Source: Perkinsus olseni
Taxonomy: Eukaryota; Perkinsozoa; Perkinsida; Perkinsidae
Assembly: GCA_013115135.1 (NCBI GenBank)
Contig: JABANP010000127.1
Span: forward strand, 58,627-122,626
DNA: 64,000 nt
Direction of reading: 5' to 3'
In this document: positions 35,255 to 56,342 of the stretch, one piece after another
Layout: every line of letters starts with the position of its first letter
Position numbering within the stretch: the stretch's first letter is position 1
Program-made: the position numbers and the translations under genes
Notes under the pieces: model-generated
The model's database searches: none
What the model was told of the DNA's origin: nothing
Seen by the model: only the letters and a program-made list of their open reading frames with translations

Positions 35255-38200
35255 CCGGACTCCAACTATCAACAGGGACTCCTCCGTGGCTGGTGTAGCT
35301 AGGGGAGTCAGCACTATCAACAGGGACTCCTCCGTAGCTGGTGTAGCTAGAGGTGTCAGAGACAGCTACGTGCCCCGGCTCTAGGGCTCTAAGTGATTGA
35401 GTCATGGGGTTCCGGCTCCAAATCGAGTTCGTCTATGCCCTTGTAGACTTGGGTAAGTGAGTAGGTTGGACGTTATGGGGACCCGACGAGAGTTGGCCCG
35501 TACCTCACTATCAACAGGGACTCCTCCGTAGCTGGTGTAGCTAGAGGTGTCAGAGACAGCTACGTGCCCCGGCTCTAGGGCTCTAAGTGATTGAGTCATG
35601 GGGTTCCGGCTCCAAATCGAGTTCGTCTATGCCCTTGTAGACTTGGGTAAGTGAGGAGGTTGGACGTTATGGGGACCCGACGAGAGTTGGCCCGTACCTC
35701 ACTATCAACAGGGACTCCTCCGTGGCTGGTGTAGCTAGGGGAGTCAGCACTATCAACAGGGACTCCTCTGCGGCAGGTGTAGCTAGAGGTGTCAGAGACA
35801 GCTATGCGCCCCGGCTCTAGGGCTCTGAGTGATTGAGTCATGGGGTTCCGGCTCCAAATCGAGTTCGTCTATGCCCTTGTAGACTTGGGTAAGTGAGTAG
35901 GTTGGACGTTATGAGGACCCGACGAGAGTTGGCCCGTACCTCACTATCAACAGGGACTCCTCTGTGGCAGGTGTAGCTAGAGGTGTCAGAGACAGCTATG
36001 CGCCCCGGCTCTAGGGCTCTAAGTGATTGAGTCATGGGGTTCCGGCTCCAAATCGAGTTCGTCTATGCCCTTGTAGACTTGGGTAAGTGAGGAGGTTGGA
36101 CGTTATGGGGACCCGACGAGAGTTGGCCCGTACCTCACTATCAACAGGGACTCCTCCGTGGCTGGTGTAGCTAGAGGTGTCAGAGACAGCTACGTGCCCC
36201 GGCTCTAGGGCTCTGAGTGATTGAGTCATGGGGTTCCGGCTCCAAATCGAGTTCGTCTATGCCCTTGTAGACTCGGGTAAGTGAGTAGGTTGGACGTTAT
36301 GAGGACCCGACGAGAGTTGGCCCGTACCTCACTATCAACAGGGACTCCTCTGTGGCAGGTGTAGCTAGAGGTGTCAGAGACAGCTATGCGCCCCGGCTCT
36401 AGGGCTCTAAGTGATTGAGTCATGGGGTTCCGGCTCCAAATCGAGTTCGTCTATGCCCTTGTAGACTTGGGTAAGTGAGGAGGTTGGACGTTATGGGGAC
36501 CCGACGAGAGTTGGCCCGTACCTCACTATCAACAGGGACTCCTCCGTGGCTGGTGTAGCTAGGGGAGTCAGCACTATCAACAGGGACTCCTCTGTGGCAG
36601 GTGTAGCTAGAGGTGTCAGAGACAGCTATGCGCCCCGGCTCTAGGGCTCTGAGTGATTGAGTCATGGGGTTCCGGCTCCAAATCGAGTTCGTCTATGCCC
36701 TTGTAGACTTGGGTAAGTGAGTAGGTTGGACGTTATGAGGACCCGACGAGAGTTGGCCCGTACCTCACTATCAACAGGGACTCCTCTGTGGCAGGTGTAG
36801 CTAGAGGTGTCAGAGACAGCTATGCGCCCCGGCTCTAGGGCTCTGAGTGATTGAGTCATGGGGTTCCGGCTCCAAATCGAGTTCGTCTATGCCCTTGTAG
36901 ACTTGGGTAAGTGAGTAGGTTGGACGTTATGGGGACCCGACGAGAGTTGGCCCGTACCTCACTATCAACAGGGACTCCTCCGTGGCTGGTGTAGCTAGAG
37001 GTGTCAGAGACAGCTACGTGCCCCGGCTCTAAGTGATTGAGTCATGGGGTTCCGGCTCCAAATCGAGTTCGTCTATGCCCTTGTAGACTTGGGTAAGTGA
37101 GTAGGTTGGACGTTATGAGGACCCGACGAGAGTTGGCCCGTACCTCACTATCAACAGGGACTCCTCTACGGCAGGTGTAGCTAGAGGTGTCAGAGACAGC
37201 TATGCGCCCCGGCTCTAGGGCTCTGAGTGATTGAGTCATGGGGTTCCGGCTCCAAATCGAGTTCGTCTATGCCCTTGTAGACTTGGGTAAGTGAGTAGGT
37301 TGGACGTTATGAGGACCCGACGAGAGTTGGCCCGTACCTCACTATCAACAGGGACTCCTCTGCGGCAGGTGTAGCTAGAGGTGTCAGAGACAGCTATGCG
37401 CCCCGGCTCTAGGGCTCTGAGTGATTGAGTCATGGGGTTCCGGCTCCAAATCGAGTTCGTCTATGCCCTTGTAGACTTGGGTAAGTGAGTAGGTTGGACG
37501 TTATGAGGACCCGACGAGAGTTGGCCCGTACCTCACTATCAACAGGGACTCCTCTGTGGCAGGTGTAGCTAGAGGTGTCAGAGACAGCTATGCGCCCCGG
37601 CTCTAGGGCTCTAAGTGATTGAGTCATGGGGTTCCGGCTCCAAATCGAGTTCGTCTATGCCCTTGTAGACTTGGGTAAGTGAGGAGGTTGGACGTTATGG
37701 GGACCCGACGAGAGTTGGCCCGTACCTCACTATCAACAGGGACTCCTCCGTGGCTGGTGTAGCTAGAGGTGTCAGAGACAGCTACGTGCCCCGGCTCTAG
37801 GGCTCTGAGTGATTGAGTCATGGGGTTCCGGCTCCAAATCGAGTTCGTCTATGCCCTTGTAGACTCGGGTAAGTGAGTAGGTTGGACGTTATGAGGACCC
37901 GACGAGAGTTGGCCCGTACCTCACTATCAACAGGGACTCCTCTGTGGCAGGTGTAGCTAGAGGTGTCAGAGACAGCTATGCGCCCCGGCTCTAGGGCTCT
38001 AAGTGATTGAGTCATGGGGTTCCGGCTCCAAATCGAGTTCGTCTATGCCCTTGTAGACTTGGGTAAGTGAGGAGGTTGGACGTTATGGGGACCCGACGAG
38101 AGTTGGCCCGTACCTCACTATCAACAGGGACTCCTCCGTGGCTGGTGTAGCTAGGGGAGTCAGCACTATCAACAGGGACTCCTCTGTGGCAGGTGTAGCT

Positions 38201-39535
38201 AGAGGTGTCAGAGACAGCTATGCGCCCCGGCTCTAGGGCTCTGAGTGATTGAGTCATGGGGTTCCGGCTCCAAATCGAGTTCGTCTATGCCCTTGTAGAC
38301 TTGGGTAAGTGAGTAGGTTGGACGTTATGAGGACCCGACGAGAGTTGGCCCGTACCTCACTATCAACAGGGACTCCTCTGTGGCAGGTGTAGCTAGAGGT
38401 GTCAGAGACAGCTATGCGCCCCGGCTCTAGGGCTCTGAGTGATTGAGTCATGGGGTTCCGGCTCCAAATCGAGTTCGTCTATGCCCTTGTAGACTTGGGT
38501 AAGTGAGTAGGTTGGACGTTATGGGGACCCGACGAGAGTTGGCCCGTACCTCACTATCAACAGGGACTCCTCCGTGGCTGGTGTAGCTAGAGGTGTCAGA
38601 GACAGCTACGTGCCCCGGCTCTAAGTGATTGAGTCATGGGGTTCCGGCTCCAAATCGAGTTCGTCTATGCCCTTGTAGACTTGGGTAAGTGAGTAGGTTG
38701 GACGTTATGAGGACCCGACGAGAGTTGGCCCGTACCTCACTATCAACAGGGACTCCTCTGTGGCAGGTGTAGCTAGAGGTGTCAGAGACAGCTATGCGCC
38801 CCGGCTCTAGGGCTCTGAGTGATTGAGTCATGGGGTTCCGGCTCCAAATCGAGTTCGTCTATGCCCTTGTAGACTTGGGTAAGTGAGTAGGTTGGACGTT
38901 ATGAGGACCCGACGAGAGTTGGCCCGTACCTCACTATCAACAGGGACTCCTCTGTGGCAGGTGTAGCAAGAGGTGTCAGAGACAGCTATGCGCCCCGGCT
39001 CTAGGGCTCTGAGTGATTGAGTCATGGGGTTCCGGCTCCAAATCGAGTTCGTCTATGCCCTTGTAGACTTGGGTAAGTGAGTAGGTTGGACGTTATGAGG
39101 ACCCGACGAGAGTTGGCCCGTACCTCACTATCAACAGGGACTCCTCTGTGGCAGGTGTAGCAAGAGGTGTCAGAGACAGCTATGCGCCCCGGCTCTAGGG
39201 CTCTGAGTGATTGAGTCATGGGGTTCCGGCTCCAAATCGAGTTCGTCTATGCCCTTGTAGACTTGGGTAAGTGAGTAGGTTGGACGTTATGAGGACCCGA
39301 CGAGAGTTGGCCCGTACCTCACTTTCAACAGGAACTCCTCTGCGGCAGGTGTAGCTAGAGGTGTCAGAGACAGCTACGTGCCCCGGCTCTAGGGCTCTAA
39401 GTGATTGAGTCATGGGGTTCCGGCTCCAAATCGAGTTCGTCTATGCCCTTGTAGACTTGGGTAAGTGAGTAGGCTGGACGTTATGGGGACCCGACGAGAG
39501 TTGGCCCGTACCTCACTTTCAACAGGGACTCCTTA
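35255..39535. repeat. Satellite 1: tandem array of a 194-bp unit
   Basis: About 21 full units plus partial ends, with unit starts (gtcatggggttccgg) at 35402, 35596, 35838, 36032, 36226, 36420, 36662, 36856, 37042, 37236 and so on to about 39410. Most units are 194 bp. Some are 242 bp because an internal 48-bp block around actatcaacagggactcctc is doubled, and two are 186 bp with a deletion in ggctctagggctct. Each unit contains gggtaagtgag, which resembles a splice donor. Short - strand open frames of 65 or 81 codons in each unit overlap by ATGA. Since 194 is not a multiple of three, they are a by-product of the repeat and not genes. Confidence 0.95.
35838..39021. repeat. Higher-order repeat of 1,592 bp, two copies, within satellite 1
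   Basis: The order of unit lengths 194, 194, 194, 242, 194, 186, 194, 194 occurs at 35838-37429 and again at 37430-39021. Diagnostic variants sit at the same offset in both copies. These are the C in gactcgggtaag (36274 and 37866), the cctccgtggctgg type unit, and the 8-bp deletion (37027 and 38619). This shows block amplification of eight units, as in centromeric higher-order satellites. A few later substitutions separate the two blocks. Confidence 0.9.
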
Positions 39536-40430
39536 CTTTCGATGCTAGCAGCACGCATAAACATATGAAGAATAGACCGTAGAAGTCTCAATGTTAGCTC
39601 AATATGATTCAGACGTCTTTGGAACTATAACTGTGAAGAACTACTGAGACCTATGACTATGTACGATGGCTTGCGTTAACTATGAGGGTCACATTAAGCA
39701 CCCATTGCTCAACACCGACGAAGTCGCCCGCGCGACCTTAGTGGCCAGAAAGAGTGGATTAGTGGCTAGGCGTAGCGAAAAAGTGGCCGGGGCGAGCGAA
39801 TTAGTGGCAGCGAAAAGTTGATGGGTTCCGAGTGCCATGCAGAATTTTGTGGCGCGTGAAGCGGCGCGGCATAGGTTTCACGAGCCAGGTAAGAAGAGTT
39901 CTCGTGATCAAGATGGTTGGTTAAACAAGGTTGGGAACCGTAATCGAAATAAGTCGGAAGCGCGGAGATTTCCTCCGCTTAGCGAGAATTGGGCACCACC
40001 GCCGGAAAAAAACAAGGACGGTCATCGGAGGACCAGGCTTCGCAGACGAGCTGAGTGAAGTGCGTCAAGATGTGATACGAGTTAAATTGAAGGAATGGTA
40101 TATCTCAACTATGCGAGAGTAACCGTTGGGAACTATTGCCAAGTGCCGTACATCAGAGATAACCAGCATACTCGAGTCACCCGGTGGAGGTGTGCAGAGA
40201 CAAACTGCTTCCGGTCAGCAAGTTGCAGGTTTACTGGATATTTAATTGATGCACAACAGTTCAGGAGAGGGAAACCATAGAGCGGACCGCGATACGCTAG
40301 TCAATCTGCGAGAGCCGCCACAGTGGACTGGCGAGGAATCACCGTGGCCACTGGCCGAAAAATGGAAATATTCTCGACAATCTGCTCATTATCGGAACTT
40401 CGGGAGGCGAAGTTTGCTCAGCTACGTCAA
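39536..40430. other. Spacer between the two satellites
   Basis: No recognisable gene. Bases 39737-39855 are rich in gtggc motifs and end with attttgtggcgcg, the inverse of the motif left of satellite 1. Frames at 39837-40446 on the + strand show no domain. Confidence 0.45.
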
Positions 40431-42955
40431 CTCCCACTCGATATGAGTTTCCACAGCATACGGGGGAGATACAGACCACTTCACGGCTGTGCCGCCCGAA
40501 TAAGGATATATTCAGATCATCAGCGTCATTGGTAGACGTAAAGAGTAATGTCAAGCTTTTTGGCCGTCGACTCCCACGCCATATGAGTTTCCACAGCACA
40601 CGAAGGTGATAAAGGCCACTTCACGACTACGTCAGTCGAGTGAGGAAAAGACCAGATTATCAGCCTCATTGGTAGCAGCAGAGATTCATGTCAACCTTTC
40701 TCTACGTCAACTCCCACTCGATATGAGTTTCCACAGCATACCGGGGAGATACAGACCACTTCACGGCTGTGCCGCCCGAATAAGGATATATTCAGATCAT
40801 CAGCGTCATTGGTAGACGTAAAGAGTAATGTCAAGCTTCTTGGCCGTCGACTCCCACGCCAAATGAGTTTCCACAGCACACAAAGGTGATAAAGACCACT
40901 TCACGACTACGTCACTCGAGTAAGGAAAAGACCAGATCATCAGCCTGATTGGGAGCAGCAGAGATTCATGTCAACCTTTCTCTACGTCAACTCCCACTCG
41001 GTATGAGTTTCCACAGCATACGGGGGAGATACAGACCACTTCACGGCTGTGCCGCCCGAATAAGGATATATTCAGATCATCAGCGTCATTGGTAGACGTA
41101 AAGAGTAATGTCAAGCTTTTTGGCCGTCGACTCCCACGCCATATGAGTTTCCACAGCACACGAAGGTGATAAAGGCCACTTCACGACTACGTCAGTCGAG
41201 TGAGGAAAAGACCAGATTATCAGCCTCATTGGTAGCAGCAGAGATTCGTGTCAACCTGTCTCTCGGTCAACTCCCACTCGATATGAGTTTCCACAGCATA
41301 CGGGGGAGATACAGACCACTTCACGGCTGTGCCGCCCGAATAAGGATATATTCAGATCATCAGCGTCATTGGTAGACGTAAAGAGTAATGTCAAGCTTTT
41401 TGGCCGTCGACTCCCACGCCATATGAGTTTCCACAGCACACGAAGGTGATAAAGGCCACTTCACGACTACGTCAGTCGAGTGAGGAAAAGAGCAGATTAT
41501 CAGCCTCATTGGTAGCAGCAGAGATTCATGTCAACCTTTCTCTACGTCAACTCCCACTCGATATGAGTTTCCACAGCATACCGGGGAGATACAGACCACT
41601 TCACGGCTGTGCCGCCCGAATAAGGATATATTCAGATCATCAGCGTCATTGGTAGACGTAAAGAGTAATGTCAAGCTTCTTGGCCGTCGACTCCCACGCC
41701 AAATGAGTTTCCACAGCACACGAAGGTGATAAAGGCCACTTCACGACTACGTCAGTCGAGTGAGAAAAAGACCAGATTATCAGCCTCATTGGTAGCAGCA
41801 GAGATTCATGTCAACCTTTCTCTACGTCAACTCCCACTCGATATGAGTTTCCACAGCATACCGGGGAGATACAGACCACTTCACGGCTGTGCCGCCCGAA
41901 TAAGGATATATTCAGATCATCAGCGTCATTGGTAGACGTAAAGAGTAATGTCAAGCTTCTTGGCCGTCGACTCCCACGCCAAATGAGTTTCCACAGCACA
42001 CAAAGGTGATAAAGACCACTTCACGACTACGTCACTCGAGTAAGGAAAAGACCAGATTATCAGCCTGATTGGGAGCAGCAGAGATTCATGTCAACCTTTC
42101 TCTACGTCAACTCCCACTCGGTATGAGTTTCCACAGCATACGGGGAGATACAGACCACTTCACGGCTGTGCCGCCCGAATAAGGATATATTCAGATCATC
42201 AGCGTCATTGGTAGACGTAAAGAGTAATGTCAAGCTTCTTGGCCGTCGACTCCCACGCCAAATGAGTTTCCACAGCACACAAAGGTGATGAAGACCACTT
42301 CACGACTACGTCACTCGAGTAAGGAAAAGACCAGATCATCAGCCTGATTGGGAGCAGCAGAGATTCATGTCAACCTTTCTCTACGTCAACTCCCACTCGG
42401 TATGAGTTTCCACAGCATACGGGGGAGATACAGACCACTTCACGGCTGTGCCGCCCGAATAAGGATATATTCAGATCATCAGCGTCATTGGTAGACGTAA
42501 AGAGTAATGTCAAGATTTTTGGCCGTCGACTCCCACGCCATATGAGTTTCCACAGCACACGAAGGTGATAAAGGCCACTTCACGACTACGTCAGTCGAGT
42601 AAGGAAAAGACCAGATTATCAGCCTCATTGGTAGCAGCAGAGATTCATGTCAACCTTTCTCTACGTCAACTCCCACTCGGTATGAGTTTCCACAGCATAC
42701 GGGGGAGATACAGACCACTTCACGGCTGTGCCGCCCGAATAAGGATATATTCAGATCATCAGCGTCATTGGTAGACGTAAAGAGTAATGTCAAGATTTTT
42801 GGCCGTCGACTCCCACGCCATATGAGTTTCCACAGCACACGAAGGTGATAAAGGCCACTTCACGACTACGTCAGTCGAGTAAGGAAAAGACCAGATTATC
42901 AGCCTCATTGGTAGCAGCAGAGATTCATGTCAACCTTTCTCTACGTCAACCATCG
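40431..42955. repeat. Satellite 2: tandem array of a 280-bp dimer (two diverged 140-bp monomers)
   Basis: Nine dimers start with ctcccactcg at 40431, 40711, 40991, 41271, 41551, 41831, 42111, 42390 and 42670. Each dimer has monomer A (ctcccactcg to ggccgtcga) and monomer B (ctcccacgcc to ctctacgtcaa), about 140 bp each. They share the core atgagtttccacagca and the cgtcattggtag/cctcattggtag segment. One A monomer has lost a G (42140), giving a 279-bp unit. Variants such as ccggggagat recur at 40741, 41581 and 41861, hinting at an extra level of block copying. Frames of 62-70 codons on both strands are artefacts of the repeat. Confidence 0.95.
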
Positions 42956-43676
42956 GGTTTCACTCGATATGAGTTTCCAGAGCACATTGAGGTGAGACAG
43001 ACCACTTGACGACTATCTCGCCCGACTGAGGATATGTTTGGATCATCAGCGTCACTGGTAGATATGAGTTCCCACAGCATACGGGGGAGATGCATACCAA
43101 TTCGGAAGGCATATACCCTTCACAGGCCGTCTTACAGTGGAGGCTGCAGAGCCTTTCAGCTTCAAAGGACGTAGGAAACACTTACGGGGCGACCTGGAGA
43201 AACCTGGGGGCAAGATGAGATATCATTAGCTGTCTTGTGCAATGTGTTGCACGCAACAACGAAAATTGACAATACCTCGTTGCACAAGCTGAGAGTCCTC
43301 CTTCCGTCAATAGATTCCAAACATTACACGCTGCCATCATTTTAGTTCCAAATTGGGACAGAGTGTTATCCGATTTTAGAGCTTGGGCCCGATTGAATTG
43401 GCGAGCGCTAGTGTTCCTTGAGGAATGCCGCCCACCGGGCCGAACGTATGTAACTTTCGGGCCCAACGTATGAAGCCCGAAAAAGTTGCTTATATTTAGG
43501 TATATCGCGGGCCTTCGGCCCGCTTATGCCCTCTAATGTCATTGTGCATCTTCCACCGCTTGGCCGTGCGTGGCGACCTTGTCAAACGTCACAGGTCGTG
43601 CCCCCCATCCTCAGCGTGCGCGAAAGTTCGATCCCTGGCGCGGGCACTTTTTCTTGCAAGTTGCATGTAATGTGGT
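42956..43676. other. Degenerate satellite 2 end and flank of the inverted-end element
   Basis: Bases 42956-43100 are diverged satellite 2 monomers. The rest shows no gene. A 7-bp-stem GC hairpin, gcgggcc-ttc-ggcccgc, lies at 43507-43523, and cttgtgcaa/ttgcacaag form an inverted pair about 45 bases apart near 43230-43290. The stretch agttcgatccctgg near 43625 resembles a tRNA B box but no tRNA can be folded. Confidence 0.5.
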
Positions 43677-44845
43677 ATCGTTCTGAAACGGTTCCCGGCT
43701 CTCTTCTACGCTTGGTTGGGCCTATTAACGAGGGCCCAGTTGCTTATCTAACGGCCGCGACCGTCCCTTCTCAACATTGCCTCAGTAGGATTCTCAAGTG
43801 CTCTCTCTCTGGAAGTTCTCACTGGCCCTATCATTCTCAGGCCTCCGAGATGCTGTTATGTCCTCGATAACCGTACGGCCGTCCCTCCTCAACATTGCCC
43901 TTGATACCCTTGCGGCCTCGCCTCCTCAACATTGCCTCGGTAGGATCCTCAAGTGCTCTCTCTCGAAGTTCTCACTGGCCCTATCATTCTCAGGCCGCCG
44001 AGATGCTGTTATGTCCTCGATAACCGTACGGCCGTCCCTCCTCAAGATTGCCTCGGTAGGATTCTCAAGTGCTCTCTCTGGAAGTTCTCACTGGCCCTAT
44101 CATTCTCAGGCCTCCGAGATGCTGTTATGTCCTCGATAACCGTACGGCCGTCCCTCCTCAACATTGCCTCGGTAGGATCCTCAAGTGCTCTCTCTCGAAG
44201 TTCTCACTGGCCCTATCATTCTCAGGCCTCCGAGATGCTGTTATGTCCTCGATAACCGTACGGCCGTCCCTCCTCAACATTGCCCTTGATACCCTTACGG
44301 CCTCGCCTCCTCAACATTGCCTCAGTAGGATCCTCAAGTGCTCTCTCTCGAAGTTCTCACTGGCCCTATCATTCTCAGGCCTCCGAGATGCTGTTATGTC
44401 CTCGATAACCGTACGACCGTCTCTCCTCAAGATTGCCTCGGTAGGATTCTCCAGTGCTCTCTCTGGAAGTTCTCACTGGCCCTATCATTCTCAGGCCTCC
44501 GAGATGCTGTTATGTCCTCGATAACCGTACGGCCGTCCCTCCTCAACATTGCCCTTGATACCCTTGCGGCCTCGCCTCCTCAACATTGCCTCAGTAGGAT
44601 CCTCAAGTGCTCTCTCTCGAAGTTCTCACTGGCCCTATCATTCTCAGGCCTCCGAGATGCTGTTATGTCCTCGATAACCGTACGGCCGTCCCTCCTCAAC
44701 ATTGCCCTTGATACCCTTACGGCCTCGCCTCCTCAACATTGCCTCAGTAGGATCCTCAAGTGCTCTCTGTCTCGAAGATCTCACTGGCCCTATCATTCTC
44801 AGGCCTCCGAGATGCTGTTATGTCCTCGATAACCGTACGACCGTT
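43677..44845 (+). repeat. Left inverted end: terminal repeat plus tandem array
   Basis: The unique terminal part is 43677-43771 (atcgttctgaaacggttccc to gtcccttctcaacattg). It is followed by about eight units to 44845. Short units (about 116 bp) run from cctcggtagga to cctcctcaacattg. Long units (about 153 bp) add a 37-bp block, cccttgatacccttgcggcc and on, which is itself a partial echo of the unit end. The array ends at cgataaccgtacgaccg. Open + strand frames through it (for example 44338-44832) come from the repeat and not from a gene. Confidence 0.9.
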
Positions 44846-45067
44846 TCATGAGTATTTATCGGGAAGTTGTTCTATGGCTGATTGATGAAGTGAAATACCG
44901 CTCATAGTCCTTTCTGGGCGTGAATGTTGTTGCGTAATCTTGAGTGTTAATGATGTCGAAACTGTGTACTACATCTCGACAAAGCGCACGAACAATCTTG
45001 AAGAAACATATTCGATGTTGGAAGAAGTGACACCTCTTGCGCAGTACATATCCGTCTGAGCTATTCT
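44846..45067. other. Putative 5' flank of the helicase-transposase gene
   Basis: About 220 bases between the left array and the helicase start. AT-richer than the surroundings. The phrase ttctatggctgatt occurs twice (44870 and 45064), the second at the start codon, suggesting a small local duplication. No defined promoter motif recognised. Confidence 0.35.
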
Positions 45068-48000
45068 ATGGCTGATTCTCGTACGATCTTGGATGCTGAG
45101 CAATCCCAGGTCCGCGACTCTGTCCTATCCGCACTCCGTAGCGGGTCAGAGAAGCAGTATTTCCTAGTGGCGGGGTTAGCCGGTACCGGCAAGACTTATT
45201 TGGTTAAGGAAATCCTAGAGGAATTGAAGAAAAGTATGACACCAATCGTCTTGTGCTGGGCTGGGGTCGCCGCAAGGCATCTGGGAGCGGATGCACGTAC
45301 TATCATGTCGTATTGCGGGCTTCAATATGATCGAACAGGGGTCCCGGGTGACAACGCTTTTATGCGTAGTCGCCCAGTCCTCGCGGAGAGAATGGTTCAG
45401 GGGCTGAGACTCCGTAGATTGCAGGAGGTTCTATCAGATCGGGCTGTTCTGATTCTGGATGAACTACAAGCCATCCAAGGGTCCGCGTTCGAAGCTCTGT
45501 CGGATGCATTCAAGACTTTGAGAAGAGAGAAGACGGGCTGCAACCTACCCTTTGGAGGGGTCCCCGTGATACTCACGGGGAACCCCTGCCAATTGGGTAG
45601 GGTCCCCTTCCATGAGTCCGAGCAGTACACGGAGACAAGTTTCCCTACAACCCCATGTTGGTTAACCGATACCTACAAGTTGATGGACCCCGTTACGTTC
45701 TACATGGAGTTGATACATCGAGGCCAAGACACTGGCTACCTTCAGATGCTGGCCGAGATCCGCAACTCCTCAGAAGGAGATATGGGGGTACCTAGGTTCT
45801 CACCAGCCGCCATGGCAGTGTTGGAGAATATACGTGACAGGGACGGAGGCAATAAAGCACCGAGGTGAGCCCAGGGAGTTGGTGAGTGGCTCACTAGTGA
45901 CAGTGACAGTGATAGTGACCACAACACCCGCGATACTGATAGTAACCAGCCACAGTGACAGTCATAGTGACCACAACACCCGTGGTAGTGATAGAAGCGA
46001 GCCACAGCGCCAGTGATAGTCATAGTAGCGAGCCACAGTGACAGTGATAGTGACCACAACACCCGTGATACTGATAGTAGCGAGCCACAGTGACAGTGAT
46101 AGTGACCACAACACCCGTGATACTGATAGTAACGAGCCACAGCGCCAGTGATAGTCATAGTAGCGAGCCACAGTGACAGTGATAGTGACCACAACACCCG
46201 TGATACTGATAGTAACGAGCCACAGTGACAGTCATAGTGACCACAACACCCGTGGTGGTGATAGTAGCGAGCCACAGCACCAGTGATAGTCATAGTAGCG
46301 AGCCACAGTGACAGTGATAGTGACCACAACACCCGTGATACTGATAGTAACGAGCCCCAGTGACAGTCATAGTGACCACAACACCCGTGGTAGTGATAGT
46401 AGCTGGCCACAACGCCAGTGATAGTCATAGTAGCGAGCCACAGTGACAGTGATAGTGACCACAACACCCGTGGTACTGATAGTAACGAGCCACAGTGACA
46501 GTCATAGTGACCACAACACCAGTGGTAGTGATAGTAGCGAGCCACAACGCCAGTGATAGTCATGGTAGCGAGCCACAGTGACAGTCGATAGTGACCACAA
46601 CACCCGTGGTAGTGATAGTAGCGAGCCACAACGTCAGTGATAGTCATAGTAGCGAGCCACAGTGACAGTGATAGTGACCACAACACCCGTGATACTGATA
46701 GTAACGAGCCACAGTGACAGTCATAGTGACCACAACACCCGTGGTGGTGATAGTAGCGAGCCACAACGCCAGTGATAGTCATAGTAGCGAGCCACAGTGA
46801 CAGTGATAGTGACCACAACACCCGTGATACTGATAGTAACGAGCCACAGTGACAGTCATAGTGACCACAACACCAGTGGTAGTGATAGTAGCGAGCCACA
46901 ACGCCAGTGATAGTCATGGTAGCGAGCCACAGTGACAATGATAGTGACCACAACACCCGTGGTACTGATAGTAGCGAGCCACAGTGACAGTCATAGTGAC
47001 CACAACACCAGTGGTAGTGATAGTAGCGAGCCACAACGCCAGTGATAGTCATGGTAGCGAGCCACAGTGACAGTGATAGTGACCACAACACCCGTGATAC
47101 TGATAGTAACGAGCCACAGTGACAGTCATAGTGACCACAACACCAGTGGTAGTGATAGTAGCGAGCCACAACGCCAGTGATAGTCATAGTAGCGAGCCAC
47201 AAGAGCACCCGTGGTAGTGATAGTAGCGACCACAGCGCCAGTGGTAGTGACCAACAACGCGGCGTTGTCAAGGCCAGTCGTAATGATCGTAGCAAGCCAT
47301 GGCAACAGCGATAATTCGTTTCATCAAACTGATACCATTTCTATACCGGGAACGGATGCAATAATTAACCAAACACCAAGTCATGAGAAACAGTAGTCAC
47401 AGGCTTAGCATGTCTACACGTAAAGGCGTTATTTCCAATGTCATCTTCTCAGATTCGAGCACACTATTCTCTGCCTAACTAATGGGGAAGCTGAGCTCTT
47501 CAATCAAAAACATCTTGATGAGATCGATGGAGACGAAGTGGTGTTTCCTGCCAAGGATACGAGAACGCAGCTGACCCCAATCGACTTCGACGACGACGAA
47601 GTATCTAAGCTGGGGTATAGGTCAACTATAGCCTTGAAACCTCGATGCCGAGTGATGGCAACCGTCAACCACCCACAGCTGATCTACTGTAACGGCTCAC
47701 AGGGCACTGTGGTTGACATCGAGCTCTCAGTTGGCCATCCTCCGAAGGTCTTGGTAGTATTCGACGGTGACGAGCGACCGGTGGAAGTGCACCCTGAGAC
47801 GTACATCCTCGAGCGAGCCGACGGCGAGACTATCTTTACCCGTCAACAGTTCCCCTTAATCCCTGCAGCTGCAATAACAGCCCATCGCGCCGTAGGGCTA
47901 ACCTTAAGAGGGGCCTGGGTACACCTGCCCTTCAAAGGTTGCCCGAGAACGGCTAATGAGGACATAGCGTCGTACTGGCGGCAGGAGTGGCTTAGAGGGT

Positions 48001-50165
48001 GCATGTACACCGTCCTATCCCGCGTCGGATCCCGACATGCTATAAGAGTGCACCCCTTGCGCCATGGTGATGTGATGCCGATCTTCTGGATGGACCCTGA
48101 GGCGGCTGCGTTCGACGCTGAATGTCGGTCGAAGAGTTTGCTGAACACCAGCAATGATCATCAACAGGCTCAGCCTAGCGGCGATGCAGCCGGAGATCCT
48201 GACCGTCAGACTGACCCTCTCATCGATCTTCAACGCTGCATCGAGAACCTGTCCATTCAGGTGAAGGCCACGTCTTCCCAAGTGGTTGACAATGTCGCTA
48301 AGCAGTTGGAGGCCAGCTCGAGTCGGGCACTGCTCTACAACCACTACGCAACCCTGCAAACTCAAAGGATCCACAACGGCCAACGCTCTATCCATGTGGT
48401 GGTTCATACCATGAGTCGACCGGTCTTGCGCGCCTCGGTCGAGCAACTGCCAACGGAACTGCAGTGGAGTTTCTATGAGCAACTAGACCAACATCTCAAT
48501 ATCGAGAGGACTGACTTAGACGACGTTGACATCTTGCGGATACTCCGAGATGTAAAGGAGGCTCAACAGGAGCCTGTGGGCGGGGTAGACGTGGGTGGCT
48601 CGGTCCCCACAACAGAAGCTGCTGTCGGTTCAACTCCTCCTGACGAAGGTGGAGTCCACAACCAAGAAGCCTCGAGCCTGATAGGTGAGGAGGATGATTG
48701 TTCAGAAGGCAGCTACAGCGACGTACCGAGATTTGACTGGGAAGAGGGTAGCGGTGAGGATGCAGAGTCCACTGATAGTGAGCTCGAGAATGCTCTCCTA
48801 AGCCCTCGCGGCAGCGCAGCCGCAAGACTGGGGCCTGGAAGAGATCGCTTCGAAGAGGAGCCATTTCTAATATGCAGGGGACCACTGCACAAAGTGGTCG
48901 AAGATTTCCTCACTGAACAACCACACTATCGACTTACCAGGACCACCATTGAAAGGCTGAAGGAGGTCGGGAGGAGCTGCATTCTCGAATGCGAGCGGAC
49001 AATCTCATACAAGAATAAGGGCAAGCCCTTGATCGCTGGTAGCAAGCCAGACTGGCGATGCTGGCCCAATGATGTGTGCTCGATGGGGGAGGTATGTATC
49101 TGTGGAAAAGACGGTGTCAATAGCTTCCACGGCCTCAAATCTGCCCATGCTACTGCTGAGGAGTGGCGAGCGCATGACCACACACCAGGAAGCACGCGAT
49201 GCCGATCCTCATACATCCCCCCACCTATCGTAGATGATTGGCTGCATTTACTGCAAGAAGACGGTTCGAAGACCAAGAGTGATCTTTTCGCGTGGACTCT
49301 GGCTAAGTACCTGAGGGGCGGATATAGCAGTAGCCCTCATACTGTGCAGTTCCTCGCGTCAAAAAAATTACAGAGCGATAGCGAGAAGGTGAGGAACACA
49401 CTGAGATCGCTCAGGCCCTACGGGAGGGCGGGACTGAGTGTTGAAGCTTTCGTAGAGGGGTTGAGCAAACTAAGATGTCCTCTAGATCAGCTCAAGGCGA
49501 ACGTCGGCCCTACGGTACAGCAGCTAGCCGCTCTTGAAGAAGGGATTGGCCACTATGATGATCTGGATGTATCAGCTGTGGATCGCTGCCTAATCCTCGG
49601 GGAAGTCCTATGTTCACGTGGGGTAGCTGAACACGGGAAATACCCCGTGAGAGAGTTCTGTGTCGTCGCCACAAGCCCGAGGATGCTCGGCAATATGGTA
49701 AACTGCCCCACAATCGGCGTCGACTGCAGCTTCAACATCGTTATGGCAAACGTGGCGATAGCTGTAGTTTGCGCCCTGCCGCGGGGCCAAACGGCCTCAC
49801 CCATAGCCATCGCTCTAGTTCACGCCGAGTCTATCTCCTCTGTTGAGCACTGCCTGCTTCAGCTGCGAGAAGCCGGTCGCATTTTGGAGCTGCCGAACTG
49901 TGAACCTAAAGAAGTTGTGATGGATGGATCGCCTAGCATCCACGGAGGGTGTACCTCTGTATACGGCGAATTCGCCGCTATTAGCTGCTTCTTCCATGTG
50001 ATGAAGCGAGCAAAGGAAGCTAAGGCCAGAGCCAATATGCCGAAGACCATATGGTTGGAGATAAAAAAGGACTTGAGCCTGCTGAGCGACTCGGTGTCCC
50101 GGGCCGAATGGGAGAAATTGGCTGTGCTGTTCGAGAAGAAGTGGAGAGAAGGTACACAGGGATAG
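45068..50165 (+). CDS. Pif1-type helicase fused to a MULE-type transposase (two exons)
   Basis: Exons 45068-45864 and 47453-50165 join in phase (AG + A gives Arg) across a GT-AG intron to give about 1,169 residues. Exon 1 carries SF1B helicase motifs: Walker A GLAGTGKT at 36-43, Walker B VLILDEL near 128, and motif III VILTGNPCQL near 168. Exon 2 resumes HTILCLTNGEAELFNQ. Then FPLIPAAAITAHRAVGLTLR and CMYTVLSRVGSRHAIRV follow, corresponding to motifs V and VI of Pif1/RecD. After an acidic linker come CysHis-rich CICGKDG and a MULE-like core: TIGVDCSFNIV (first Asp, about 1020), EVVMDGSPSI (second Asp, about 1088) and ISCFFHVMKRAKEA, the C-x-F-H-v-x-k signature. A TAG at 50163 ends the frame inside the transposase. 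The domain order helicase then transposase in one frame is directly visible; activity is unknown. Confidence 0.8.
45865..47452 (+). other. Intron containing a minisatellite
   Basis: The donor is gaggtgagccc (GT at 45865) and the acceptor is tcatcttctcag ending at 47452. Removal restores the helicase frame exactly between motifs III and IV. Most of the intron, about 45890-47230, is a tandem array, listed separately. It is far longer than the 30-100-base introns of the neighbouring genes. Confidence 0.8.
45890..47230. repeat. Minisatellite inside the helicase-transposase intron
   Basis: About ten copies of a roughly 135-bp unit, each made of three related subunits of about 45 bp of the type gcgagccacagtgacagtga followed by tagtgaccacaacacc. 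Because the unit is a multiple of three with no stops on the - strand, a 517-codon antisense frame (45742-47295) spans it; it has only the repeat's composition (HYHWCCGHYDCHCGSLL) and is not a gene. One extra C near 46587 slightly shifts the subunit register. Confidence 0.9.
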
Positions 50166-50520
50166 GCTCGGGCAGACCCCGTCCGGCAGAAGCTCCGCCG
50201 GGAGGTCGAATATTTTGAGGATTTATCCGAAAGGCCTGCATCTTTGTGTCGCACTGTTCTGTTACGTAGAGCGTCCGGCAACACTCTCTCCAATCGGCCG
50301 AGCATCAGTCGAGACCTTCATGGGCGACTTCGCCTCGTATCTGACCACGTCAAACTGGAGGAGCTATTGGGGGCAGTACGCATCGGAGCGGAGCGGGCCA
50401 AGGACAAACAACGCAGTGGAGAAGGCTAACCGCATGATTAAGGAAGAGGTCGGCTGGGAATTGCGTGTTGCTGAGACACTCGGCGCCGAGTATATAGCGT
50501 ATGGTGTGAGACTCATACTA
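50166..50520 (+). CDS. MULE transposase, continuation (frame-broken)
   Basis: Directly after the TAG at 50163 the same frame continues RADPVRQKLRREVEYFEDL, which fits the transposase region following FFHVMKR. The frame then has to change. From about 50260 a second frame reads GRASVETFMGDFASYLTTSN, WRSYWGQYASER and GPRTNNAVEKANRMIKEEVG. The last is the family's R-T-N-N-x-x-E segment, which probably contains the third acidic residue of the catalytic set. So this copy has one stop and one frame change, or introns I could not place. A strong donor-like gagtaagtac follows the final TGA. Confidence 0.65.
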
Positions 50521-50762
50521 TGAGTAAGTACACATTAAGAATGAGCGTAAAAATGAGTATAGGGTGATAGGACTATCATCATAGTCAAACACTTTTGGCG
50601 TTTAATTTTAAAACAAAATTACCAACATTATTACGGTATGCGCGAAATTGATTGATTTTGCTATACGAACCCTCCGGGGAGCATCACTCTACGCTGGAGA
50701 GGTAGTCCAGGATCTATTGGGCTCGTCGCAGACAGGTAGTTGCTTCGAGTATTGCAAAACAG

Positions 50763-51602
50763 GTGACGGACAATAGAAGGAGAAGAACGCTCAGCGAGTT
50801 CAACGGTTACCTGAACAATGGTGCTTCATGGGCGAAGATCTCCCAATATGGTCATGCCACCAACAAAGGCGAGATCACCGACAAGTATCGACGATTTGGA
50901 GCTCGCTCGCTAGCCACCGAAAGCCTCTGCCAAGTACCGAGGACCTGGAAGACGACGAGAGAAGTGGATCCCAACGACGAGACGGAGTGGCTCTTCATCC
51001 GGGATCCCCAGGTCAAAAGAGGCGTTGAATCCCTTTCCTGTCATGTTCTGTCCGACGACGACCTCGGCAAGTGCGCGAAGAAGTTCTACGAAGCAGACTA
51101 TACCACGCTTCAAGAGGCTCATGAGCTCACTAGCACATTCTGTGCAGTACGGTACTCCAAGGCAGGCGGCACTCTATCATCCTACTGCACATGCTCCACG
51201 TGGAGGAAAAACCTCGTATGTGGGCACTTGGCCGCGGTGGCTCATCTTTCTGGCGGCGACTCCTCACGTGAAGCAACTGAAAAGTGGAGGTTTATGCAGG
51301 TGTACTTCCGGCGAGCTGCTCGGACCCGGAAAAAAACAGGAGAATTCGACCAGAATGTCCTCCCAGCCGACGCTCGATACGGAATCAGTCGAAGTGAGCC
51401 ATCGGCAGCGCCGAGACCTCGTAAGCGTCGCAGGGCAACTGCAGCCGGTTCTGGGCAAGTTACCCCACCTGCAGCCAAGAGGCCAAGAATTGTTATTAAG
51501 GGAGCTAGCGGTCAAACGAGGACTGTGAGACCCCAATTAGCACATCGATTAATGCATTGTTTCGGTAAGCCTGATGCCTTGCGTAACTCGAAGGACATGT
51601 AA
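50763..51602 (+). CDS. SWIM zinc-finger exon of the transposase
   Basis: The frame opens right after an acceptor (ttgcaaaacag) and is likely a further exon of the transposase gene. It contains YCTCSTWRKNLVCGHLAAVA (about 51184-51245), a SWIM zinc finger (C-x-C-xn-C-x-H), which in MULE proteins follows the catalytic core and may bind DNA. A basic stretch, RPRKRRRATAAG, near the end could be a nuclear localisation signal. The protein ends at TAA 51600-51602. No ATG near its 5' end explains it as a separate gene, which supports splicing from the upstream exons. Confidence 0.75.
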   Translation: MTDNRRRRTLSEFNGYLNNGASWAKISQYGHATNKGEITDKYRRFGARSLATESLCQVPRTWKTTREVDPNDETEWLFIRDPQVKRGVESLSCHVLSDDDLGKCAKKFYEADYTTLQEAHELTSTFCAVRYSKAGGTLSSYCTCSTWRKNLVCGHLAAVAHLSGGDSSREATEKWRFMQVYFRRAARTRKKTGEFDQNVLPADARYGISRSEPSAAPRPRKRRRATAAGSGQVTPPAAKRPRIVIKGASGQTRTVRPQLAHRLMHCFGKPDALRNSKDM

Positions 51603-52617
51603 GAAAACGCGGGCCGTATGACAGTATGCAACTTTCACAGCATATCATACTACCTGCCCGAGCCAGCTCACGTATAGTATTCCTGCCAACTCCTCACAGT
51701 TCGGCCGGTTCGGGTCGAACCCAACACAGAGTCCTGAAGTTCCAGAAAAGCTCTCACTTATTCTTCCTCTGAGGCTCTCGCTCTCTATAATCGTGCCATG
51801 ACCCATTTCACCCGTCGTTACATAACTGGATCGATGTCACTGATGCTCATCGTATTTTGACAGTGATGGAGGGCGACTGCTTCGACATAGGCAGGACAGG
51901 TCGAGGGACCTCGGAGTTTAAGTCGCAGCGCGGATGCTGTATGAGCCTGTCTACTCTGACCTCTTGGGAAACGCAGTGATTAACATCTGAACACATTAGC
52001 AATGTGTCCTTGGCAATTCTGTGCATTGTAGCATTGCGTGTGTTATGATATGCATATGTTATGTTCATGATGTGACTCACATCCAGCTTGGCGTGAACGC
52101 CGTGCATAGCTCAGATGGAACTTGAGCACATTTCAAACGCGTTTCTCACTGCGGTGTAAGATAATCCCTCTCCACTCAACGAGAACCTCACCAGTTGGAA
52201 TATGGTGAACACACCATGTGTCGATGGACCACGAGAGACAGCCCTCTTCTAATCGAGCAACGGCTCGCGCATCAGTTGAGCATAAAGAGGAACGAACCAA
52301 CAGAGCGACCGTAGGCAAACAAAATTCGACCCCTGATAATAGACGGTCCATTTATTTTTCCGTCGACAAGTACACCAAATATGAGCTTCTCCACAATGGG
52401 AAAAGCCTACCATGCCGACTGACAAATATGTAATCTGGGAAGTCACAACCAGACTACATAATGGTCAATACATAATGGTCGGTAGTGAAGACCACACTAC
52501 TAATGGTCACCGGTAGTCGTGACCATCAGTGTGGTAGTCATGGACCTTAAGTAGGTAGTAGCCGTTGTGGTTGGGACCATCAGCGTGGTAGTCGATCAGT
52601 AACGATCAGATCGTCGA
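51603..52617. other. 3' flank of the transposase gene inside the element
   Basis: About 1 kb without a recognised gene. Near 52450-52600 there are short direct repeats around tggtcagtagtcgtgaccat-like words (taatggtc, ggtagtc, gaccatcag). A - strand frame at 51847-52107 shows no domain. Confidence 0.45.
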
Positions 52618-54128
52618 GGAAGGGAGGGCAATGTTGAGGAGGCGAGGCCGTAAGGGTATTGAGGCAATGTTGAGGAGGGACGGCCGTACGGTTATCGAGG
52701 ACATAACAGCATCTCGGAGGCCTGAGAATGATAGGGCCAGTGAGAACTTCGAGAGAGAGCACTTGAGGATCCTACCGAGGCAATGTTGAGGAGGCGAGGC
52801 CGTAAGGGTATCAAGGGCAATGTTGAGAAGGGACGGCCGTACGGGTATCGAGGACATAACAGCATCTCGGAGGCCTGAGAATGATAGGGCCAGTGAGAAC
52901 TTCGAGAGAGCACTTGAGAATCCTACCGAGGCAATGTTGAGGAGGCGAGGCCGTAAGGGTATTGAGGGCAATGTTGAGAAGGGACGGCCGTACGGTTATC
53001 GAGGACATAACAGCATCTCGGAGGCCTGAGAATGATAGGGCCAGTGAGAACTTCGAGAGAGCACTTGAGGATCCTACCGAGGCAATGTTGAGGAGGCGAG
53101 GCCGTAAGGGTATTGAGGGCAAAGGTTGAGAAGGGACGGCCGTACGGTTATCGAGGACATAACAGCATCTCGGAGGCCTGAGAATGATAGGGCCAGTGAG
53201 AACTTCGAGAGAGCACTTGAGAATCCTACCGAGGCAATGTTGAGGAGGCGAGGCCGTAAGGGTATCAAGGGCAATGTTGAGGAGGGACGGCCGTACGGTT
53301 ATCGAGGACATAACAGCATCTCGGAGGCCTGAGAATGATAGGGCCAGTGAGAACTTCGAGAGAGCACTTGAGAATCCTACCGAGGCAATGTTGAGGAGGC
53401 GAGGCCGTAAGGGTATTGAGGCAATGTTGAGAAGGGACGGCCGTACGGTTATCGAGGACATAACAGCATCTCGGAGGCCTGAGAATGATAGGGCCAGTGA
53501 GAACTTCGAGAGAGCACTTGAGAATCCTACCGAGGCAATGTTGAGGAGGCGAGGCCGTAAGGCTATTGAGGGCAAGGTTGAGAAGGGACGGCCGTACGGT
53601 TATCGAGGACATAACAGCATCTCGGAGGCCTGAGAATGATAGGGCCAGTGAGAACTTCGAGAGAGCACTTGAGAATCCTACCGAGGCAATGTTGAGGAGG
53701 CGAGGCCGTAAGGCTATTGAGGGCAAGGTTGAGAAGGGACGGCCGTACGGTTATCGAGGACATAACAGCATCTCGGAGGCCTGAGAATGATAGGGCCAGT
53801 GAGAACTTCGAGAGAGCACTTGAGAATCCTACCGAGGCAATGTTGAGGAGGCGAGGCCGTAAGGGTATTGAGGCAATGTTGAGAAGGGACGGCCGTACGG
53901 TTATCGAGGACATAACAGCATCTCGGAGGCCTGAGAATGATAGGGCCAGTGAGAACTTCGAGAGAGCACTTGAGAATCCTACCGAGGCAATGTTGAGGAG
54001 GCGAGGCCGTAAGGGTATTGAGGGCAATGTTGAGGAGGGGCGGTCGCGGCCGTTAGGTAAGCAACTGGGCCCTCGATTATAGGCCCAACCAAGCGTAGAA
54101 GAAAGCCGGGAACCGTTTCAGAACGATT
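52618..54128 (-). repeat. Right inverted end: tandem array plus terminal repeat
   Basis: Mirror image of the left end. About nine units of the same sequence, read on the - strand, occupy 52618-54045. The unique terminal part, 54045-54128, ends with ccgtttcagaacgat, the inverse of the left tip. The array is longer than the left one (about 1.4 kb against 1.1 kb), so unit number has changed independently at the two ends. Some units have gained or lost a base (for example ggcaaaggttgag near 53119). Confidence 0.9.
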
Positions 54129-54339
54129 GCACGGTCCCCGACCGTGGGAACTGGAAAACCACGAGTGACGTTAAGAGCGCAAGATCAGAAACGTATCCTA
54201 CGGTTACGACTTGACGGTTTCGGATATCTGGGCGATGCTCGGACGTCCTTTTCCTATTGGATTGCTATTGGCTTGCTACTGACTGTGAACAGTTATTGCT
54301 CACTACTACGTTCGGGTCTCGGTGACGTGTCCCTGTGAC
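54129..54339. other. Flank between the DNA transposon and the retroelement region
   Basis: Short stretch without recognised features. The doubled gtgacgtgtccc near 54322-54345 is a small direct repeat. No target-site duplication matching the left flank of the transposon was found here. Confidence 0.4.
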
Positions 54340-56342
54340 GTGTCCCCTTTAGCTAACCGTGAGTAGTACTTCGTTCGTACGTGTTCGCGTGCGATAGCGC
54401 TATTGGTCTTACGTCTATACGGTCTCTAGTTATCACCATTTGGCTACGACTATCATTAGGATTGGTTAGAGCGACTGACTTGTTGGGTTCCAACGTTTTG
54501 GAAGGGTCTCTACGTTCTTATGATTAGGGCGAGGCAATGCGCCAGCCACGATGAAGGGCCTACGATAGCGTACTTAGGCTGTGATAACGTATCTTGCGTT
54601 ATTCCTGCAACGTCTATCCTGGCCACACACCACTTCATCGCGCATTCTACCGGGATTGTGTTGTCTACAGGCTCCTACCATGATCCTACGTCTGCACGGC
54701 TCGACTATCAAGCGTCCCTGGTCACGACTACCGGCTCTTCTGAAGACTGATCCCCTTCTAGAAGGCAACCACTATTGTGACCTGCTGGACGGCGTTTTCG
54801 CGAGACGAGATATCGAGCCCCACGACGTGCGATGGAGTCATCCTTACCTTACAAGCGGTCTGGACTACGTTCACAGTGACCACTACCGAGGCAGCATCGG
54901 CAGCCGAAAGTCTCCTAGGAGACGATCGGCTCTGGTGTCCCCTCACCCTATGGCCGCACTAGCAACGACTCCCATGGCGTGATCCTGTAGACGACTATCC
55001 CCAATACAACACCGGAACCAACTGATCTGGCAACAACAACCTCGACAACGGTAGATTCAACGACATACTGTGTCCTAGAATTGGCAAAGGGACCGGGGTG
55101 TACACCGTTCCTTCCTGTGGACGTCAACCACTGGATTATGTCTGGTCTACGTCCTGTTGTACGAGGTGAAGAAGTATTTGGTGATCTAAGATTAACGACG
55201 GCGTGGATCGCCTATAGTTCTTGGGTTTGACAAGGCGATCTCTCACGCTAGACCTACTATGTGACGACTCGGCTCTACGACTTCATCCTCTTCAACACGT
55301 ACACTGTTACTGTACGGATATCCACTACCGAGATATACCGTTATCTCCGAGCCGACGACTCACGTAGATGCACTAGAGAGGTAACCGCGGCAGTTGTTAT
55401 GGACGCTGCCCGGTCGTAACAATGGCGTTACGTAGTTCCCATGACGTGGAACCTTATCTCTAATGAAGTATCGTCTGGTGGTCAGGCAGTCATCAGACGA
55501 CAACGATAAGATGTATCGTGTGGTTCTTGTACCGTCGAGAACCACAAGCCTACTCCTCGGTTCTTCGTGATATGAAGGTTGACGACATTTAGGACGACGT
55601 CATGGTACCAACTTCATATCTCGATTATGGGAGTGACTATGACCCCTACGTCTGCATTCACAGCAACGCCAAGTCACTTCCATCCACGTGTGCGAGTCAG
55701 GCAGTTCGTGCACGACTTCATGGACCCTTACGGCCTAGTATTCAGACCGTTGCTAGACCGCTGCGCAGAAGGTGTCCATTTGCGATGTACTCCAGGGTGC
55801 GTCAGTCAGGCAGTTGACGACACCTCACCGACGGAACAACCGTATGTTGTACATCGATGACGCAGTTGACGACTTAGCTATGGCCGGCGACTATGGTAAC
55901 TACACTCTGCGTCTAAACCTACGAGCGGTGACGTTGTCACAGCTCACAATTCATCACTTTTCCTTACGGCGACGATTCGATGTTACGTGGCTTGAAGGAA
56001 GAGTCCCTAGCAGCCGTGGGCTGTGGTGCAGCACACTTCGCCGACGTTCCGCACTGCTAGAACGGCTGTCCCCTACCACACAACTTGGGTGTCCCCAATG
56101 GTCATCTACGGTACGCCCGACGACTACTAACGTGGTAGGACTCCCGATGTTGCTGACGAGTGACTACGGAGAAGAACGATGACCGTCATTCATCTGTATG
56201 AGAAGCTACTACCACTAGCCTCACTAGCTACGTAGTGTAGGTGCTACGTTGTGTTGTCTCTAGCGTCGAGTAGTTCGACGATCTAGCTCTATATATCAAC
56301 TACCCTTACGACTTCATCTGTTTGAAGACTCTACTCTTTATC
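54340..56342 (+). other. Probable LTR/leader region of the Bel/Pao-like element
   Basis: About 2 kb with the same word bias as the polyprotein gene (many acgac, tacgt), but with all frames closed, so it is likely non-coding leader plus LTR or a decayed reading frame. The AT-rich word ctatatatc at 56288-56296 lies 47 bases before the start codon. No LTR can be confirmed, because the matching 3' LTR would lie beyond the window edge. Confidence 0.4.

Follow-up and report, generated by a model that had tools for sequence, protein, structure and literature searches.

A Mutator-superfamily transposon gene of Perkinsus olseni whose predicted transposase starts with a Pif1-type helicase

The question raised by this locus is whether a Pif1-type helicase and a Mutator-superfamily (MULE) transposase that are encoded side by side in Perkinsus olseni belong to one protein, and what such a helicase might do there. 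The locus lies in a stretch of 64,000 nucleotides (GenBank assembly GCA_013115135.1, contig JABANP010000127.1, forward-strand positions 58,627 to 122,626), which is called the window here and corresponds to C32:58627-122626 in the labels used for the 968 contigs of the 61.5-Mb assembly. Our answer, to which we give a probability of about 75%, is that the gene belongs to a foldback-form MULE transposon and encodes a transposase of roughly 1,490 residues that starts with a complete Pif1-type (SF1B) helicase.

Four plus-strand open frames make up the gene, 45002-45868 (288 codons), 47424-50165 (913 codons), 50086-50523 (145 codons) and 50706-51602 (298 codons), and these were compared by tblastn with 15 merged genome stretches. 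The order helicase N-terminal half, helicase C-terminal half plus MULE, RTNN/E and SWIM region is complete in 5 of the 15, namely the window and contigs C621, C257, C448 and C799, so that the search for copies of the same domain order proposed in the initial annotation returned four further loci in this genome. Conservation is counted below over these five loci. The helicase is made up of the following parts:

45068-45864, plus strand: exon 1, predicted N-terminal half of the Pif1-type helicase (Pfam PIF1, E = 4.7e-18; profile match to Pif1 in the PDB)
45173-45196, plus strand: Walker A, helicase motif I (GLAGTGKT), with the lysine kept in 5/5 loci
45455-45463, plus strand: helicase motif II (LDE), with DE kept in 5/5 loci
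47454-47933, plus strand: predicted C-terminal half of the helicase, with motifs V and VI and an SH3-like insert

A helicase divided between exons 1 and 2 had been proposed from the letters of the window, and complementary profile matches to solved Pif1 proteins bear this out. The exon-1 family profile aligns with solved Pif1 helicases of the PDB over their N-terminal half (best match 7otj, E = 2e-26, chain residues 12-212), while positions 9-159 of the exon-2 family profile match residues 239-468 of 7otj, in the C-terminal half of the helicase (E = 4.1e-18), and positions 6-160 match human PIF1 6hph (E = 8.3e-17). The helicase spans exon 1 and the first ~160 codons of exon 2, and the two segments are predicted to be complementary halves of one complete Pif1-type helicase with the full motif set. 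Conserved in all five loci are the lysine of Walker A, DE in motif II, Q in motif III, H and G in motif V, and SR in motif VI. A methionine stands shortly upstream of the helicase in the window, C621, C799 and C448, and none is present in the C257 piece.

The remainder of the protein carries the transposase:

47453-50151, plus strand: exon 2, with the helicase C-terminal half, linker, pre-MULE region and MULE core in a single open frame (47424-50165)
49716-50009, plus strand: MULE transposase domain PF10551 (22.7 bits in the frame search, 27.6 bits in the whole-genome search)
49722-49724, plus strand: first catalytic Asp (VDCSF), kept in 5/5 loci
49923-49925, plus strand: second catalytic Asp (VMDGS), kept in 5/5 loci
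50309-50446, plus strand: exon 3 (3' end approximate), with the RTNNAVE motif
50419-50421, plus strand: catalytic Glu (RTNNAVE), kept in 5/5 loci
50757-51602, plus strand: exon 4 (5' end approximate), C-terminal region with a SWIM-like finger
51174-51245, plus strand: SWIM-like zinc finger (Pfam 16.7 bits, cut-off 19.6)

The claim that the MULE core follows the helicase in exon 2 without a stop is upheld by the Pfam MULE match, the predicted folds and the open frame. A Pif1 fold and a transposase fold are predicted within the exon-2 frame, and the modeled transposase fold matches ISCth4. Together with the D, D, E triad, a CxxH between the second D and the E is kept in 5/5 loci, and CxxH is given as a shared signature in PMC9587614. 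The domain assignments proposed initially fared unevenly in the Pfam profile check of the frames: the PIF1 match is strong, the MULE match falls below the cut-off of 27.6 bits, and the SWIM finger said to follow the RTNN glutamate likewise scores below its cut-off, the glutamate itself being conserved. The whole-genome search counts the window MULE as over the cut-off, and MULE relatives in this genome score above it. The CxC..CxH pattern of a SWIM finger, a feature of many Mutator-superfamily members, is visible in the window, C621, C257 and C799, and C448 is not read in frame at that place. As a separate observation, a C4HC3 PHD-like pattern ends the copies at C799:8327, C335:6844 and C448:19456, where Pfam gives no PHD match; the pattern was not found in window positions 43000-55000.

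Whether these parts are translated together depends on two introns:

45865-47452, plus strand: intron 1, GT-AG, 1,588 nt, largely minisatellite (array about 45900-47250)
50152-50308, plus strand: intron 2, which holds an apparent stop and has its donor just after the MULE core in 5/5 loci

Intron 1 is a GT-AG intron in phase 2 that interrupts the same codon inside the helicase in all five loci. Because the intron-2 donor sits just after the MULE core in each of them, the stop near 50163 is read as intronic. A stop between helicase and transposase, which would speak against a single polypeptide, was sought in the five loci and none was found outside GT-AG introns. Candidate breaks in C799 and its close relative C335, near 5357/5371 and 6603/6648 (C799 numbering), were rejected as such stops and read as GT-AG introns of 60-70 nt; the two copies differ by a 2-nt indel located in the first of these. 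The helicase and transposase are thus predicted to be encoded as one spliced gene with one fused frame, conserved introns, and the helicase and DDE residues kept. A minus-strand open frame of 532 codons at window positions 45742-47340 is the intron 1 minisatellite read in reverse.

An alternative is that two proteins are made, with exon 1 forming an mRNA of its own that terminates at the in-frame stop next to the donor, while exon 2 receives a spliced leader at 47453 and yields a separate protein of helicase half plus transposase. The genome does hold 85 exact copies (38 forward, 47 reverse; control 0) of CCGTAGCCATCTTGGCTCAAG, which we take to be a perkinsid-type spliced leader, and in 4/5 loci (window, C621, C257 and C799) the exon-1 frame ends right at the donor. 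We nevertheless regard this arrangement as quite improbable, since the GT donor and AG acceptor recur at the same codon and phase in 5/5 loci, the division would cut the helicase between motifs and leave no ATPase in either half, and the helicase C-terminal half would still be fused to the MULE core in one frame. Copies of the spliced leader form regular rows in C41 (spaced about 3.35 kb), C268, C270 and C871 that resemble tandem gene arrays. The presence of this leader supports an origin of the DNA from Perkinsus, a genus of Perkinsozoa.

The four further loci are distant relatives of the window gene, with exon-2 proteins 38% (C621), 38% (C257), 33% (C448) and, for three C799 pieces, 33-44% identical to that of the window. 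This divergence bears on the idea that a MULE simply inserted into a Pif1 gene and the two are read as one gene by chance. Fusions can arise in this way, which is the sole point in favor, yet the fusion point, linker and intron positions are identical in five loci that share 33-44% of their exon-2 residues, and the other loci rule chance out unless they share a single fused and selected ancestor gene, as the reading preferred here holds. A chance insertion is therefore vanishingly improbable, and a maintained two-engine transposase, as opposed to a chance collision, is indicated because the junction is retained in several distant copies within this genome.

The other stretches hold partial or decayed relatives. 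C335 is 99.1% identical to C799 over 4,492 nt and lacks exon 1; at C335:1438-2826 the upstream array runs directly into the intron-1 region of the gene. C699 (exon-2 protein 30% identical to the window) has the helicase N-terminal half and the MULE without the helicase C-terminal half, and its MULE part is interrupted by one stop. Helicase parts are present in C35 and C593 without a MULE core in the stretches read, although a profile search detects a trace of the linker or pre-MULE region in both (C35, domain E = 4.4e-5; C593, reaching profile position 680). C152, C672 and C18 hold helicase fragments only, and C855:5538-9387 holds exon 1 twice (about 98% in protein) among long arrays, with no exon 2. 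The left flank of C855 is common to the window over 250 bp, and C855 may be another haplotype or an assembly effect. C467 (27% identical) has a MULE without a recognizable helicase, none being present in C467:1-7300, and C179 is a more distant MULE. Upstream of the C467 MULE, at C467:3235-3591 and 3942-4286, lie two near-copies of a frame that contains the motif-II-like string LILIDEV; tblastn gave no confirmation of a helicase relic there (best E = 1.3). Among the 38 MULE rows of the genome, 7 belong to the Pif1-MULE family (window, C257, C448, C799, C335, C699 and C467). Fifteen of the 38, these 7 and 8 others, were examined for a neighboring helicase, and no family helicase was found beside the 8 (7 with flanks of up to 1.5 kb, plus C179). 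Pif1-type helicases have other partners in this genome: a distinct long family joins one to a C-terminal GIY-YIG nuclease (C375:2069-5071, with PIF1 E = 2.1e-11 and GIY-YIG E = 8e-7, and C214, assigned by eye), and further long PIF1 frames occur in C161, C52, C562, C478 and more.

The closest pair of copies allowed selection to be assessed. The coding changes between C799 and C335, which may be alleles or a recent duplicate, comprise 14 synonymous and 4 nonsynonymous (dN/dS 0.087; p = 1.6e-6), and the pair shows purifying selection. By part, the synonymous to nonsynonymous counts are 4:1 in the helicase C-terminal half, 3:0 in the linker and pre-MULE region, 2:1 in the MULE core and 5:2 in exons 3-4; exon 1 falls outside the count because C335 lacks it.

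Trees fit an early fusion best. In the MULE-core tree (15 rows), six helicase-bearing rows and C467 form a single group (97/98) within which C467 is sister to C699 (100/100), and since C699 retains the helicase N-terminal half, an early single fusion with loss of the helicase in C467 is the simplest account. In the helicase tree, which has 14 rows, those of the family (window, C855, C621, C257, C448, C799, C699 and C35; eight in all) group at only 81/85, and one origin for the family helicases appears likely. It could be argued that the helicase was picked up as a passenger, is tolerated by the transposase and plays no part in transposition: MULEs are prone to take up pieces of host genes (PMC6446971), C467 has no helicase in the region read despite belonging to the same MULE clade, and C699 lacks the helicase C-terminal half. 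We hold this to be very unlikely given that the helicase motifs are kept in 5/5 diverged loci, and the counts for the helicase C-terminal half, few as the changes are, point the same way.

The next question is whether the gene sits in a mobile element. In the window it is enclosed by paired repeats that delimit an element of 10,451 bp:

43677-43781, plus strand: left terminal inverted repeat, 105 bp, a 94% match to 54023-54127 reversed
43766-44844, no strand assigned: left sub-terminal tandem array, units of 116/153 bp, an inverted copy of the right array
52627-54043, no strand assigned: right sub-terminal tandem array, unit of 151 bp
54023-54127, minus strand: right terminal inverted repeat, with an exact right border (homology to C324 starts at 54128)

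The left and right arrays are 92-99% complementary among the 25 longest pairs listed. When the whole genome was searched with the 23-base end, allowing up to 2 mismatches, it was found in 3 places, the two element ends and C855. Contig C324 aligns with the right flank at 98% identity across 2,973 columns, starting at 54128, the first base past the end repeat. At C324:41713/41714, where this homology begins, another repeat ends that is found in many contigs; 9 of its 11 other places end at query positions 1498-1500 and the remaining two at 1488 and 1493, and the frames next to the C324 junction look reverse-transcriptase/RNase H-like by eye. The right border is thus exact, although C324 is no simple empty site. 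Paired inverted ends, diverged family members and an exact right border support mobility of the element without proving it. The genes in C621, C257 and C799 also adjoin tandem arrays. Outside the element, window positions 36000-43062 are taken up by long arrays whose units measure about 194 and 140/280 bp, and at the right edge of these arrays are short pieces that recur in C598, C380, C601, C97 and more contigs.

Several observations weigh against the proposal of a mobile element with a maintained helicase-transposase. No target site duplication (8-11 bp for MULEs) was readable at the element borders, the left flank being a mosaic of repeats found in other contigs, and inverted ends were not found in the stretches read around C621, C257, C448, C799, C335, C699 and C467. 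The Pif1-MULE families are near single-copy, the window family included. A comparison of exon 1 between the window and C855 shows 5 synonymous against 6 nonsynonymous differences (p = 0.096), and a C855 exon 1 copy has lost the Walker A lysine, both of which make C855 look decayed. On the MULE tree, the state "helicase-bearing" has to change twice (2/500 shuffles as low) because C467 sits inside the helicase-bearing group. The window copy has SWIM and MULE Pfam scores at or below the cut-off, the splice junctions are predictions from sequence alone, and a part for the helicase in transposition is something that we infer.

Some of these points would suit a different history, in which the genes descend from an old transposon and are now domesticated host genes that no longer move. 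Such a history would account for purifying selection in the C799/C335 pair, for near single-copy families, and for inverted ends that are seen in the window family only and lack a readable target duplication. We think it unlikely, however, as paired inverted ends and arrays flank the window copy, its border is exact against a contig without the element, and, wherever the surroundings were read, they are rich in repeats, both for the five diverged members and for a number of decayed or incomplete copies.

If the element is mobile, by what mechanism might the helicase contribute? Eukaryote cut-and-paste transposases are generally thought to leave the steps after cutting to host repair and replication, and Pif1 helicases unwind DNA 5' to 3'. 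Sequence and predicted fold point to an ATP-driven helicase joined to a DDE strand-transfer enzyme. One possibility is a division of labor in which binding and cutting of the array-rich ends fall to the transposase, while the tethered helicase loads on exposed single strand and unwinds it in that direction. The helicase may thereby clear folded or nicked ends for synapsis and excision; alternatively, it may allow copying to proceed across the end arrays so that the donor site is filled again. A more far-reaching proposal, which we consider unlikely, is that the fused Pif1 makes foldback-MULE transposition replicative, by strand peeling and copying in place of plain cut-and-paste, and that the end arrays lengthen as a side effect; if true, the element would be a DDE transposon that brings its own motor for replication, and its route would lie between those of MULEs and Helitrons. 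A role for the helicase at G-quadruplexes finds no support in the element, in which no such motif was found on either strand with loops of up to 7 and one, on the plus strand, with loops of up to 12. A helicase motor kept on a DDE core makes it testable whether some transposases carry out part of the post-cutting step themselves, and it may bear on why foldback ends and arrays grow so long.

How does this gene compare with known systems? Helitrons likewise carry a Pif1-type helicase within the transposase polypeptide, and Helraiser 7lcc matches both helicase halves of the window family, although it scores below cellular Pif1 chains. In Helitrons the partner of the helicase is an HUH Rep nuclease, and these elements have neither a DDE core nor inverted ends, whereas the element in the window has inverted ends; no Helitron domain is among the Pfam matches listed for the four window frames, a list that covers 25 of 28 families for exon 1 and all families for the other frames. 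Foldback Mutator elements and Rehavkus resemble the window element in their MULE-type transposase, long inverted ends and minisatellites by the gene (PMC6446971, PMC4079207), and the foldback form, inverted ends backed by internal tandem arrays, is present in the window element. They differ in that Table 1 of PMC6446971, a eukaryote-wide MULE survey, lists no helicase, the word occurring 0 times in its main text; Rehavkus elements are listed with a PHD finger. The word also occurs 0 times in the consulted part of a 2026 paper on arthropod MULEs. A Pif1-MULE fusion is not named in the literature searched by title and abstract, although a Repbase entry is possible.

The initial annotation knew of no described family of this kind, which holds for the particular pair in the literature searched and needs qualification for helicases at large. 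KolobokH, a Kolobok lineage of fungi, is a DDD/E transposon in which a helicase accompanies the transposase (PMC9587614), but its helicase is of the RecQ type and lies downstream of a Kolobok transposase, whereas the gene in the window is a MULE with Pif1 upstream. AcademH is also cited as a helicase-encoding DDE lineage, yet it belongs to the Academ superfamily and its listed helicase domains are Helicase_C/DEAD (PMC10799480, in the part consulted). A DDE transposon with a helicase is therefore an already known kind. Judged against the literature searched, what appears to be new here is the pairing of MULE and Pif1 in one polypeptide, which extends the range of known fusions involving transposase domains by Pif1-MULE.
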